This document shows, in pieces, positions 26,546 through 47,331 of a stretch of 64,000 nucleotides of DNA. Position 1 is the first letter of the stretch. Every line of letters begins with the position of its first letter. The notes under the pieces are model-generated. The model was not told the origin of the DNA. It worked only from the letters and a program-made list of their open reading frames with translations, and ran no database searches. Both the position numbers and the translations under genes were made by a program. This DNA is from Phycisphaerales bacterium (GTDB taxonomy: Bacteria; Planctomycetota; Phycisphaerae; Phycisphaerales; UBA1924), in contig DASPKU010000015.1 in NCBI GenBank assembly GCA_035627955.1, forward strand, positions 124,001-188,000, given 5' to 3'.

Positions 26546-27156
26546 ACGAGGCTCTCCTCCGTCTCCAACCTGTTGCAACTTGCCGCAAGAAAGGGGATGC
26601 GGATGATGAAGGCCGCGACGGGGGCGACCGACAGGACCAAGAACACCCAGAGCCAAGACACCGTCGGAAGGCCGATCACCCCTTTGCTGAACATGAGGAA
26701 GAGACCAAGCGCCGCGCCGGCACACACGCACCAGAGCCCGATCATCGTTCTACAGAAATTCCAGTGGGCCTTAATACTGGTGCGGACCGCGACCGCACGG
26801 TGGTACCGGTCAAGGTCATCGGAGGATGCGTCCAAGAACGACCGGACAGCCTCCTGGAACTGCGTGCTTTCGATAGAGAAAACCTTGTTGATGTCGGCCT
26901 CTTCAAGTGGGTTCCCATCGGGGCCAACAAGCGCGACCTTTGCAGCCGAGCCTCGACCCGTTGCCACGAACGGTTTCATGGCCATACCCAAGGCGGTGGT
27001 CAATTTGCCACGGCTCAGGGCACAAACGGCGTCGGCCCGCTCCACAGTGGGCCGGACGAACTTGTCGCCGATGATCGCATAGGTCGCCGGCAGTGAAAGC
27101 ACGAAGCTGCCCAACTCGATCTGGAGTCCCAGGTCGGACAGTTCCTGCGACGTCAA
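26542..27156 (-). CDS. Two-TM membrane protein (second gene of the unusual operon)
   Basis: 204 residues from a TTG at 27156 that overlaps the stop of the upstream gene (TTGA), so translation is coupled. The first 130 residues are soluble and mixed alpha/beta. A C-terminal helical hairpin follows (MIGLWCVCAGAALGLFLMF and WLWVFLVLSVAPVAAFII) with a short cytosolic tail. No family is recognised. In defence-type operons such proteins often act as membrane anchors or effectors; here that is only inference from context. Confidence 0.72.
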   Translation of the reverse strand: MTSQELSDLGLQIELGSFVLSLPATYAIIGDKFVRPTVERADAVCALSRGKLTTALGMAMKPFVATGRGSAAKVALVGPDGNPLEEADINKVFSIESTQFQEAVRSFLDASSDDLDRYHRAVAVRTSIKAHWNFCRTMIGLWCVCAGAALGLFLMFSKGVIGLPTVSWLWVFLVLSVAPVAAFIIRIPFLAASCNRLETEESLV

Positions 27157-27773
27157 CGTCTGCCCCCTTTCGCGAGCACTTTATCACGGATCTCCGATTC
27201 ACTCGTCCACCCCTCACGTTCGTACTTCGTGTACACGTGGTAGAGCAGATCCTGCAACGAGTAGTTGCCGAACCTTGACTTGACCTTCCGAATTCCGTCG
27301 GCGAACGGCGCTGTCGATGGGTCTTGCAGGAGCCGCTGGACAAGCGCTGTCCCTTTTGGCGTTAAGGTGTACCGCCGTTCCTCGAAGGTGTCAGCCGTCG
27401 AGGCAGTGTCTCGCGATGGCGCGCTCACGAATGGTGCAGCTTGGGGACCCATGAGTTGCTCGAATGAAAGCTCCTCAAGTTCGACCGCCTCAGCCTCGCT
27501 CGCCTCCCCTTGGATGTCGCTCTTGATCAAGCCGAGGTTTTCTAGTAGCTCCAGCTCGTCGTACAGCTTGCGGGAATAGGGACCCGCCTTGTAGGGCTTG
27601 AACTCGAATCCAGTGCTTACCTCTTCGACACCCGCTTCCTTCCAAAGCAGGAACAGGAGCTTCTGCAAGCGAGTGATGCCGCTCACCCCCTTTGTGGACA
27701 GGCCTGACCCCTCGAGTCCAAGCAGCATGAGAAGCATCGCTTGTTTTGAGATCGCCGGATTCCCAGTGGGCAT
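27153..27773 (-). CDS. YwgA/SocA-like winged-helix protein (first gene of the unusual operon)
   Basis: 206 residues from the ATG at 27773, with GGAGG in the leader. The N-terminal pattern is GITRLQKLLFLLWKEAG, then FKPYKAGPYSRKLYDELELL and LGLI. It resembles YwgA-like proteins and the SocA/Panacea (DUF4065) domain, which occurs in toxin-antitoxin and defence loci. A Glu-rich linker (about 85-105) and a winged-helix-like second half (RRYTLTPKGTALVQRLL, with NYSLQDLLYHVYTKYE) follow. It opens the four-gene unit and may be a regulator or antitoxin-like protein; this is not shown by the sequence. Confidence 0.75.
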   Translation of the reverse strand: MPTGNPAISKQAMLLMLLGLEGSGLSTKGVSGITRLQKLLFLLWKEAGVEEVSTGFEFKPYKAGPYSRKLYDELELLENLGLIKSDIQGEASEAEAVELEELSFEQLMGPQAAPFVSAPSRDTASTADTFEERRYTLTPKGTALVQRLLQDPSTAPFADGIRKVKSRFGNYSLQDLLYHVYTKYEREGWTSESEIRDKVLAKGGRR

Positions 27774-29905: not shown

Positions 29906-30607
29906 ATGGGGAATCAAGTCGTACCGTCTGACCGCCGCGACAAGATCCAGTGGTTCCGTGACCGCATCACGGCCTGGAGCGCGGCCAACACCAGCATCGG
30001 GCTCACCGCGGCCCAGTGCACCGCGATGGCGGCGGCCATCACCGCCGCGGAGAACAGCGAGCAGGAGGCGGAGGAGATCCGCGCCGCCAGCAAGGCCGCC
30101 ACCGTGAAGTTCTACGGCGACACCGCGGCGATGGGCAGCCTGGGCTCCTCGCTGGTCTCGACCATCCGCGCCTTCGCGGAGCAGTCGAGCAACCCCACCA
30201 ACGTCTACAACCTCAGCATGGTGCCCCCGCCGGCCGTCCCCTCGAGCGTCCCGGCCCCCGGCACGCCCACCGACTGGAAGGTGGAGCTGCTGCAGGACGG
30301 GTCGATCGTCCTGAAGTGGAAGTGCAAGAACCCCGCGGGCGCCAGCGGCACCATCTACGAGGTGCGCCGCGCCGAGCTGGGCAGCGACGACTGGCAGTTC
30401 ATCGGGGCCACCGGCGTGCGCAGCTTCAGCGACGCCATCCCCAAGGCCTCGCCCGGCGTCTCCTACCAGATCACCGCGGTGCGGAGCACCCGCCGCGGCA
30501 ACCCCGCCGTCTTCGACGTCCGCCTGGGCACCAGCGGCGGCGGGTTCTTCGCCACCGTCACCCCCACCAGCACGCCCGGGGAGAACACCACCAAGCTCGC
30601 CGCGTGA
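29906..30607 (+). CDS. FnIII-like domain protein, copy A
   Basis: 233 residues from the ATG at 29906, with GGGAGG a few nt upstream. Residues 1-100 are helical with Ala/Glu heptads, a Pro-rich linker follows (about 103-125), and residues 126-225 form a fibronectin-III-like beta sandwich (GSIVLKWKC, YEVRRAE, FSDAIPKASPG, YQITAVRS). It ends TKLAA. The copy at 46320-46988 has the same architecture and ending. No signal peptide is seen, so its export is unclear. It is followed by the 353-nt structured element also found after copy B. The frame is open upstream to 29756, but the ribosome site fixes the start. Confidence 0.82.
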   Translation: MGNQVVPSDRRDKIQWFRDRITAWSAANTSIGLTAAQCTAMAAAITAAENSEQEAEEIRAASKAATVKFYGDTAAMGSLGSSLVSTIRAFAEQSSNPTNVYNLSMVPPPAVPSSVPAPGTPTDWKVELLQDGSIVLKWKCKNPAGASGTIYEVRRAELGSDDWQFIGATGVRSFSDAIPKASPGVSYQITAVRSTRRGNPAVFDVRLGTSGGGFFATVTPTSTPGENTTKLAA

Positions 30608-30623
30608 GGTTCAAGGATGAACC

Positions 30624-30976
30624 TCTCGCGGAGGCGCGGAGGCGCTGAGCTGATAGCAGAAGAGAGAGAGAGAGAACGCCGACTGGTCGAAAGACCACCG
30701 CACGCGCCGGAGCGCGCGTTTGACAGGGCCGTTGCGCCATGTCCGGGGCAAGCCGTGAGAGCCCTTGTCACCCCGGAAGTCATGCCGGGGCGGGAAGCCT
30801 GGCGGTGAACGGGAACACACCGACCGGCGCGTCGAGGACCTCGGCGTCACTTTCAGGGGTTCATGGATGAGCCCCGCCCGATCCACGGCATCCAACCACC
30901 CGCGCGAGAGCGCGGGGCAAACCTGCGGCCGCGTGCGAGCTCCTCACCGAGAGCGCACGCGGCCGCGGGCGTTTGA
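30624..30976 (+). ncRNA. Conserved structured 3' element, copy A (candidate RNA)
   Basis: After the stop of copy A a region of about 350 nt is shared with 47005-47331. Visible stems: TGGTC-GAAA-GACCA (30684-30697), CGCGC-CGGA-GCGCG (30703-30716), GACAGGGC/GCCATGTC (30722-30743, one mismatch), an extra CCCGCGC-GAGA-GCGCGGG hairpin (30899-30916, absent from copy B), and the closing 13-bp stem at 30925-30966. Stem pairs change in a compensatory way between copies. It opens with a CGCGGAGGCGCGGAGGCGC repeat common in such genomes. Whether it is an RNA, a 3' UTR or a DNA element is undecided. Confidence 0.5.
30925..30966 (+). terminator. 13-bp hairpin closing element A
   Basis: GCGGCCGCGTGCG and CGCACGCGGCCGC pair perfectly around a 16-nt loop, followed by GGGCGTTTGAG. 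It is strong enough to act as a terminator, although the T run is short. Confidence 0.5.
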
Positions 30977-44802: not shown

Positions 44803-46014
44803 TTATCGGCCACGGAGTCCGCGCTGATAGACCACACGGTCCTCGGGGACAACCTCCCCCCGCAGGACTGCCTTGACCTGGTTCCGGTTTTTCACCTCCT
44901 TGACGTAGTGGTCAGAGGCGTCTGGGACCCATCCACCCTCCAACGCGGCCGTGAGGTGAACGCGTTCCCACGGCATTGCGTGCACCTCCCAAAGGCCTTG
45001 GTGCTGGGGATGCGCCAAGAGCGGATGGATACGCTCGGCAATCTCGTACGCCGCTGGGTCCACAACGATGATCCGTTCGATGCTCACGTTCCGATGAAGC
45101 GAGGTTGCCATGAAGTACCTCATGAACGTGTCGGATTCGGGGAAGCTGTACCCGATGAACACGAGCACCTGCGCCTGGCCTAGAGCGTCCGCGGCGTGCT
45201 GCCACTGTTCCTGAACAGCGTCAAAGAAGGCGGACTTAAGCACGGTTGGCGGAATGATCACGGTGTGCTCGGGAAAGCACCATGACTCGGCGCCGCGGTC
45301 CCATCTCCGGCGGTGGAACTTCTCCTGTTGAGCGTTGTATTCCGAACCTGTGATCCGGTCATCGACGCGGAAGTCCATCCCGTCGTTAAACCAGTTCACA
45401 GACCCGTGGAGCTTGAGCAGAGTGAGCTGCCGCCCGGCTAGATTGCGGTTGTGCCCAAGCTTCCCAGAATAGAGAGAGCCTAAGCGCGGCTCCTGCTCCC
45501 GTTTCGGGTGCACGCATGCGGCCACGACCGTCGGAGTCATACGCACTGCAATCTCGTTTGCGGCAGCCGCCGCCTCGACGTTCAGGTCGTAGTTCGTGGT
45601 GATCACCGTGAGCTCGTTGTCGTGCTCCAGGACGTTGCTCAGCAACGGGCCGACCCCGGAGTTCATCTCGCGGTGGTTAGGTGAATAGACGAGAGCGATT
45701 GCCTTGCGCACGAGTGCAAGCGCGGCTGCTGGTGTGGCGTAGTGGCCCGCGCCCGGGAACGTCAGCGTGGGCTTGGAGAGTCGCATCAGTTCCAACAGCG
45801 ACGCTAGTTGCTCGATGTTCCGTGCGGACCCGCCAACTAGGGCCGAGATGTCCGTGCAATGCGCTTGAATCGCGTCGAACGCTCGCAGCTCGTCATTACT
45901 GAGCAGGCCAGATGACCGCAGGTAGCCGTTGAAGCTCGACATCGCCGGGTACCCATCTCGGACGGACAGGCCAGCGCCACAGAACGCCACCACTCGCTTT
46001 CCACTCACGCTCAT
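44803..46014 (-). CDS. SIR2-like NAD-dependent protein
   Basis: 403 residues from the ATG at 46014, with AGGA seven nt upstream; a GTG three nt further upstream is less well placed. SIR2 motifs: VAFCGAGLSVRDG at the N-terminus, TTNYDLNVE (Asn141, Asp143), KLHGSVNW (His203) and VFIGYSFPESDTFMRY near residue 290. SIR2-like proteins outside sirtuin metabolism are frequent in anti-phage systems, where they deplete NAD, often beside a second gene. No partner is adjacent here; the neighbours are a minisatellite and an FnIII-like gene. NAD hydrolysis is inferred from family membership. Confidence 0.82.
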   Translation of the reverse strand: MSVSGKRVVAFCGAGLSVRDGYPAMSSFNGYLRSSGLLSNDELRAFDAIQAHCTDISALVGGSARNIEQLASLLELMRLSKPTLTFPGAGHYATPAAALALVRKAIALVYSPNHREMNSGVGPLLSNVLEHDNELTVITTNYDLNVEAAAAANEIAVRMTPTVVAACVHPKREQEPRLGSLYSGKLGHNRNLAGRQLTLLKLHGSVNWFNDGMDFRVDDRITGSEYNAQQEKFHRRRWDRGAESWCFPEHTVIIPPTVLKSAFFDAVQEQWQHAADALGQAQVLVFIGYSFPESDTFMRYFMATSLHRNVSIERIIVVDPAAYEIAERIHPLLAHPQHQGLWEVHAMPWERVHLTAALEGGWVPDASDHYVKEVKNRNQVKAVLRGEVVPEDRVVYQRGLRGR

Positions 46015-46319
46015 CACGGCATCCTAGAGGAAAACGGTAGCGAGCTAACCACCGATCCCTGCTCGTCTTGCGCCATTTGATCGGTGCACACGGAAAAAAA
46101 CGCAGAGTCGGACTAATCCCACCCCCCGCGCTTCCCGATGCCATGTACGTCGCCGCGGCGGGGAACACAAGGCTCCCACAAGGACCAACCCCGCCGACAG
46201 CGACCGAAGGCCTGCCCGGGCGTGTTGCCCGGGGGGAACGGGCCGGGCGTGTTTTCTGTGTCTTGGCCGCTGCGGGTTCTGTGTGTGCCGCGCTCGGCCC
46301 TTTCTATGAGGAGTAGGCA
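46015..46319. other. Non-coding gap before the second FnIII-like gene
   Basis: 305 bp. It holds CCCGGGC-GTGTT-GCCCGGG (a short hairpin near 46217-46235) and GTGTTTTCTGTGTCTT, then the leader of the FnIII-like gene with GAGGAG upstream of 46320. No supported ORF. Confidence 0.4.
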
Positions 46320-46988
46320 ATGCCTACCACAATCGCAGAGCTGCTTCAGTGGGCGGGATCGCACCGGGACCTCTGGGTTTTGAACCAGGCGCAAATCGGA
46401 TTGAGTGCTCCGCAGGTCCAGGCCTTCAAAACCGTCGCCGACGCGTTCATCGCGGCAGAGGCGGCGGCGGTGAAGGCACGGGAGGCGGCCAAGGCCGCGA
46501 CCCTCGAGCTCAACGACGCCATGGCCGCGGTGCGGACGCTGGGCGGCGGCTACATCAACCTGATCCGCGCCTACGCCGAGACCACCAACAACAACCAGGT
46601 CTATGTGCTCAGTGGCGTCGATCCCGTGTCGCCCCCCGGCCCCCAGCCGATTCCGAACGCCCCCACGAACTTCTCCGCCACCGTCACGCCCGAGGGCTGG
46701 ATCGTGGTGTCGTGGAAGGCAAGCCAGCCGGCCAGCGGCGTGCAGTACCGCGTGCAGCGGCGCATCAACGGCGAGGCGAACTTCACGCTCGTGGGCACGG
46801 TCGGCAGCGTCAAGAAGTACGAGGACAAGACCCTGCCCTTCGGCGTAGACCGCGTGGACTACATCGTGACCCCGGTACGCAACAACATCGTGGGCCCCTC
46901 GGGCAACACCTTCAGCCTCCAGTTCGGCGTTGGCGGCGGCGGCAACTTCGCCATCACCAACGCGACCGAGACCAAGCTCGCGGCGTGA
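46320..46988 (+). CDS. FnIII-like domain protein, copy B
   Basis: 222 residues from the ATG at 46320, with GAGGAG upstream. Same plan as copy A: a helical Ala-rich region (1-95), a Pro-rich linker, an FnIII-like sandwich (about 115-205: GWIVVSWKASQP, YRVQRRINGE, YIVTPVRNN), then a Gly-rich stretch and the shared ending TKLAA. Sequence identity with copy A is modest in the helical half and clearer in the beta half. No signal peptide. The 3' element at 47005-47331 matches that after copy A. Confidence 0.8.
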   Translation: MPTTIAELLQWAGSHRDLWVLNQAQIGLSAPQVQAFKTVADAFIAAEAAAVKAREAAKAATLELNDAMAAVRTLGGGYINLIRAYAETTNNNQVYVLSGVDPVSPPGPQPIPNAPTNFSATVTPEGWIVVSWKASQPASGVQYRVQRRINGEANFTLVGTVGSVKKYEDKTLPFGVDRVDYIVTPVRNNIVGPSGNTFSLQFGVGGGGNFAITNATETKLAA

Positions 46989-47004: not shown

Positions 47005-47331
47005 TCACGCGGAGGCGCGGAGGCGCTGAGCAAAGGCAGAAGAGAGAGAGCGGGAGAGAGGGAACGCAGACTGGTCGAAAGACCACCGCACGCGCCGGAG
47101 CGCGCGTTTGACCGGGCCGTAGCGCCCGGTCCGGGGCAAGCCGTGAGAGCCCTTGTGACCTCTTCGTTGGAGGCGGGAAGTTCGGCGGTGAAGGATCGCC
47201 GCCGCCGGCGCGTCGGGAAACCGGCGTGGACATGAGGGGTTGACGGATCAGCCCCGCCCGATCCACGGCATCCAAACCTGCGGCCGCGTGCGAGCTCCTC
47301 ACCGAGAGCGCACGCGGCCGCGGGCGTTTGA
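47005..47331 (+). ncRNA. Conserved structured 3' element, copy B (candidate RNA)
   Basis: Matches 30624-30976 in order and in most bases: TGGTC-GAAA-GACCA at 47072-47085, a CGCGC-type stem next, GACCGGGC/GCCCGGTC (47110-47131, 8 bp fully paired), a GGGGC...GCCC stem, the GATCCACGGCATCCAA stretch and the closing 13-bp stem at 47280-47321. The hairpin with a GAGA loop in copy A is missing. The fourth base pair of the GACC stem is C-G here and A-T in copy A, a compensatory change. Confidence 0.5.
47280..47321 (+). terminator. 13-bp hairpin closing element B
   Basis: GCGGCCGCGTGCG/CGCACGCGGCCGC, identical stem and loop to 30925-30966, followed by GGGCGTTTGAGTG. Confidence 0.5.

Follow-up and report, generated by a model that had tools for sequence, protein, structure and literature searches.

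RESULTS

Two paralogous genes followed by the same 3' unit

The window, a stretch of 64,000 nucleotides (contig C15:124001-188000) of the 4.26-Mb draft genome G000, contains gene A, which codes for a helical and FnIII-like protein, and its paralogue gene B (Table 1). The two proteins are 33% identical in a pairwise comparison, and a GC-rich unit of about 300 nt lies downstream of both genes. An earlier note on this DNA had reported that the sequences behind these diverged paralogues match, which alignment and blastn bear out: 230 of 264 aligned bases (87%) of the unit are identical, and a blastn search of the reported span against its own genome returns copy A itself (100%) and, along the entire span, copy B with 78% identity (E 2e-82). 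Mismatches between A and B are strongly clumped, with longest identical runs of 83, 44 and 28; the run of 83 spans a 25-nt indel and was matched in none of 20,000 shuffles. The right boundary of the unit is sharp, with similarity ending just past GCGTTTGAG, and there is no homology between the right flanks to anchor a conversion tract. Convergent neighbours common to both loci were discarded as an explanation, the genes to the right of A and of B being unrelated.

The reported span opens with 27 nt of a common repeat (CGCGGAGGCGC) found at dozens of sites genome-wide, so the unit proper starts near 30675. A and B thus share more than this repeat, namely the ~300-nt unit beyond it. The dispersed TCTCGCGGAGGCGCGGAGGCGC repeat also occurs at L057, L065 and L072, often as inverted pairs around terminators. 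A protein-coding unit was rejected because gaps of 5, 2, 1 and 25 nt break the frame and the mismatches follow no codon rhythm.

Near A, the stretch 27153-27773 gives weak matches to the Panacea domain (SocA-like) and to PDC-M19A and may encode an antitoxin, and beside gene B lies a SIR2-like gene (44803-46017) that resembles defence-associated SIR2 proteins. A defence island with an RNA part was considered on account of these neighbours and set aside, as nothing ties them to the unit.

Table 1. Features of the two loci and of the low-copy unit of genus g23. Positions refer to the window unless a locus is named.
Feature	Position	Strand	Remarks	Basis
Gene A	29906-30607	+	233 aa, helical and FnIII-like, ends TKLAA	ORF read, family search
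Dispersed repeat TCTCGCGGAGGCGCGGAGGCGCTGAGC	30624-30650	+	outside the unit; short copies at many places	
Copy A of the 3' unit	about 30675-30976	+		alignment, blastn
Hairpin H1, TGGTC-GAAA-GACCA	30684-30697	+	identical in B	sequence
Left tagged hairpin CACGCG..CGCGCGTTTGA, copy A	30701-30723	+	pattern found only 4 times in the genome	
Hairpin H3, GACAGGGC/GCCATGTC	30722-30743	+	A-T becomes C-G in B, a compensatory change	
Proposed long-range helix P2, GCCGTG.GA/TCCACGGC	30752-30760 with 30882-30889	+	invariant (GCCGTG/CACGGC)	
Hairpin H5, CCCC/GGGG	30771-30790	+	CCTC/GAGG in B (C-G to T-A)	
Hairpin H7	30829-30847	+	contains two G-T wobbles; A-T becomes G-C in B if a gap is moved manually by one column	
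Hairpin H8, GGGGTTCA/TGAGCCCC	30856-30875	+	contains one T-G wobble; C-G becomes G-C in B	
Hairpin CCCGCGC-GAGA-GCGCGGG	30899-30916	+	in A only	alignment
Terminal 13-bp stem	30925-30966	+	identical in A and B	
Right tagged motif CACGCGGCCGCGGGCGTTTGA, copy A	30956-30976	+		genome pattern scan
Gene B	46320-46988	+	222-aa paralogue of gene A, ends TKLAA	
Copy B of the 3' unit	about 47064-47331	+		alignment, blastn
Left tagged hairpin, copy B	47089-47111	+		genome pattern scan
Core of copy B	47110-47273	+	matched by model R1	
Right tagged motif, copy B	47311-47331	+		genome pattern scan
Low-copy unit of genus g23	L097:220-420; L135:1910-2166; L136:219-403; L137:255-313			

Hairpins of the unit and their conservation

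Structural elements (H1, H2, H3, H5, H7, H8, the terminal stem and a long-range helix) were found by hand and with RNAalifold. The GAAA-loop hairpin and the terminal stem of 13 bp (30925-30937 paired with 30954-30966) described in the earlier note are both present and unchanged between the copies; the reported switch from GACA/TGTC to GACC/GGTC is also real, though A has a G-A mismatch within that 8-bp stem. Four compensatory double changes were identified by hand, in H3, H5, H7 and H8, and two double changes fall in pairs found without alignment folding. Helix P2 is proposed as a candidate, no change between the copies bearing on its pairing. The 25-nt indel takes exactly one whole hairpin out of copy B.

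The folding energy of the whole unit beats 200 of 200 shuffles in both copies (z -4.0 for A, -5.6 for B). Once the terminal hairpin is left out, the core reaches z values of only -1.4 (A) and -3.2 (B) on the + strand, and of +0.3 and -1.0 on the minus strand. Conservation of pairing was compared with a null in which one copy was held fixed and the observed substitutions were placed at random in 200 trials. On the + strand, 30 pairs are common to A and B versus null means of 5.3-5.9, a value reached in 0 and 1 of the 200 trials; the minus strand also exceeds its null (19 common pairs versus 4-6), so that by this measure an RNA is not separable from DNA hairpins. Covariation from alignment folding is not significant, with three double changes where column-shuffled alignments reach three to four, and the case therefore rests on the random-substitution null. 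Three G-T wobbles kept on the + strand would be A-C mismatches on the other, which favours the + strand. Judged from the two sequences, pairing has probably been conserved between A and B as + strand RNA.

Search for further copies and known families

In its own genome, the only full copies returned by blastn are A and B; the other matches, of about 27-57 nt, comprise the dispersed repeat only. Neither blastn nor a covariance model trained on the two copies found a homologue in several hundred genomes of the family, order and class (150 and 200 relatives, 397 genomes from the class and 400 from the order; the sets overlap), with the proviso that the first pass of the model scores few candidates per genome and a strongly diverged relative could escape it. 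Two weak model matches, one lying with many pairs broken inside an apparent protein-coding ORF (G435) and one a 47-nt fragment (G335), were taken as chance, as were short blastn matches of 22-43 bp in relatives. Phage and plasmid collections gave no match to the unit, and a pattern scan of viral contigs was likewise empty.

Against Rfam 15, the window has no match at the gathering threshold and a permissive search gave sub-threshold matches only, in agreement with the earlier impression that the element resembles no recognised RNA family. The suggestion of a structured RNA or 3' UTR holds insofar as a structured element stands behind both genes; a class of such RNAs is not shown. The multi-hairpin fold and the compensatory changes recall candidate structured RNA classes from comparative genomics (PMC2864571), from which the unit differs in comprising two sequences in one genome, too few for covariation at the level of a class. 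Given two copies and no homologue in the relatives searched, a new class of structured RNA, taken strictly, cannot be claimed.

Distribution of the unit across the gene family

At least 19 members of the FnIII-like family were scored in G000, and the family search gave matches in 36 of 150 relatives. The A/B unit is absent behind all 16 other G000 members that were read; about 13 of these carry, as judged by eye, an ordinary GC-rich hairpin, in most cases trailed by a T-rich stretch, no further than ~150 nt from the stop codon. The unit begins where sister genes carry these terminator hairpins, after the same leader repeat.

Gene A groups with L057/L058 (support 100/99) and gene B, with strong support, with L067, L068, L072 and L026. 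The two are united in 0 of 200 bootstrap trees, and two separate acquisitions of the unit are needed. Upstream, A matches its sister L057 over 163 bp (79%); having upstream DNA as in L057 and a 3' unit as in B, the locus is mosaic, and the history of the unit is not that of the gene. Both the paralogues that lack the unit and the well-supported separation of A and B in the tree contradict the earlier proposal that a mobile unit travels together with the gene. It is the 3' unit that moved, and it did so without the gene.

Several other observations were made on the family. The C-terminus reads -[KR][LMIV]AA in 31 of 47 members read, with a close variant in most others, resembling the genome's own tmRNA tag ADRNYALAA and a ClpXP-type degradation signal. 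Nearly identical terminator-like blocks occur downstream of the non-sister pairs L067/L070 (38 nt) and L105/L106 (52 nt). A shared 3' region in G048 proved to be a many-copy repeat and was left out of the evidence.

A second low-copy unit in genus g23

The related genus g23 repeats the pattern with a ~180-nt unit unrelated to A/B: in G082 it lies directly behind three family genes, incomplete in one case, and also after what is left of a fourth. Its five genome-wide matches all fall at those four places (Table 1). The three proteins ahead of it are 26-37% alike, and the decayed gene ends GDQQAA. The unit is not exceptionally stable (z -1.3). At one G022 locus it is present in both orientations, which hints at a mobile repeat.

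DISCUSSION

The presence of the same strongly folding 3' sequence behind distantly related paralogues suggests non-coding DNA copied between gene ends. We lean, tentatively, towards a lineage-specific ~300-nt 3' module that displaced the ordinary terminator of two FnIII-like genes and was copied from locus to locus without the gene. The module would be transcribed as the 3' UTR of each gene, and its long GC-rich terminal hairpin would end the transcript or shield the 3' end from exonucleases. The ends of paralogous genes may have exchanged it through gene conversion or ectopic recombination. The g23 unit, which sits behind dissimilar family genes, also speaks for this reading. Like intrinsic (Rho-independent) terminators and 3' UTR stabilising hairpins, the unit offers a GC-rich hairpin, the 13-bp stem, where other paralogues carry a terminator. 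It is unlike intrinsic terminators in its length of about 300 nt, its many hairpins and its occurrence behind non-sister genes, and the terminal stem is followed on the + strand not by a strong U-tract but by GGGCGTTTGAG, with only TTT. A simple + strand terminator scan called none on the unit, so that a role as terminator is put forward here as a conjecture.

The main rival, unlikely in our judgement, is a non-autonomous mobile DNA, either cassette-like or moved by a single-strand recombinase acting in trans, with a CACGCG..CGNGCGTTTGA hairpin at each end. The pattern CACGCGN{3,9}CGNGCGTTTGA occurs exactly four times in the 4.26 Mb, at the left and right of both copies, and not once in a reversed control; the tag sequence at the unit ends is GCGTTTGA, and the motif may be a structural repeat or a recombination signal. 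The sharp right boundary and the two orientations of the g23 unit at one locus would also suit such an element. However, it has only two copies, both behind the same gene family, and no terminal inverted repeat of the kind expected of a MITE or DNA transposon spans the unit. No recombinase or transposase was found among the window ORFs scanned, and in relatives the tagged motif is scattered, at one or two per genome in 9 of 150 genomes, counting its own.

Two kinds of known element share part of this design. As in integron cassettes (gene plus attC), a folding repeat lies directly behind different genes and is more alike than the genes, and CAAAC/GTTTG stands at the ends of the right hairpin; unlike cassettes, the genes are dispersed, form no array, and mostly lack the unit. 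The core sites of attC are RYYYAAC and GTTRRRY; the unit reads GTTTGAG and GTTTGAC, which do not match these, GTTTGAG failing to fit GTTRRRY, and attC was rejected. REP/BIME palindromic repeats (PMC3733652) are likewise intergenic and palindromic, with a short tag beside the hairpin, but REPs are high-copy sequences of 20-40 bp; an assignment to them was dropped, as the unit has two copies, measures about 300 nt and is confined to a single gene family.

Quite unlikely, in our view, is neutral duplicated intergenic DNA, that is, a recent and functionless copy that folds through its G+C content of about 70%. The lack of homologues, the presence of just two copies and the unexceptional core fold of A would agree with it, as would the finding that column-shuffled alignments give equally many double changes under a fold optimised to contain them. 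Substitutions are strongly clumped, however, and keep pairing far more than random placement would; by our estimate, two chance insertions behind the family would have a probability of ~(19-39 genes x 300 nt / 4.26 Mb)^2, or 1e-6 to 1e-5.

We give the least credence to an independent small structured RNA gene downstream of A and B: the multi-hairpin fold with GNRA-like loops, the + strand preference and a variable hairpin lost whole in B would fit one, yet a simple scan found no sigma-70-like promoter, and the unit has neither an Rfam match nor a homologue in hundreds of related genomes.

Taken with the g23 case, one may ask whether FnIII-like families in this planctomycete group recurrently gain structured 3' units, low in copy number and specific to the lineage, which spread from one paralogous locus to another without the gene. 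We regard this generalisation as improbable; if true, it would imply a dedicated mechanism, by exchange or by cassettes, or else control of the whole family through its 3' UTRs. Should the A/B unit instead be a mobile element, the tagged hairpins that bracket it would point to an undescribed recombination signal. If it is the functional, swapped 3' UTR that we tentatively favour, bacterial gene ends would evolve as exchangeable modules, here within a rapidly expanded family.
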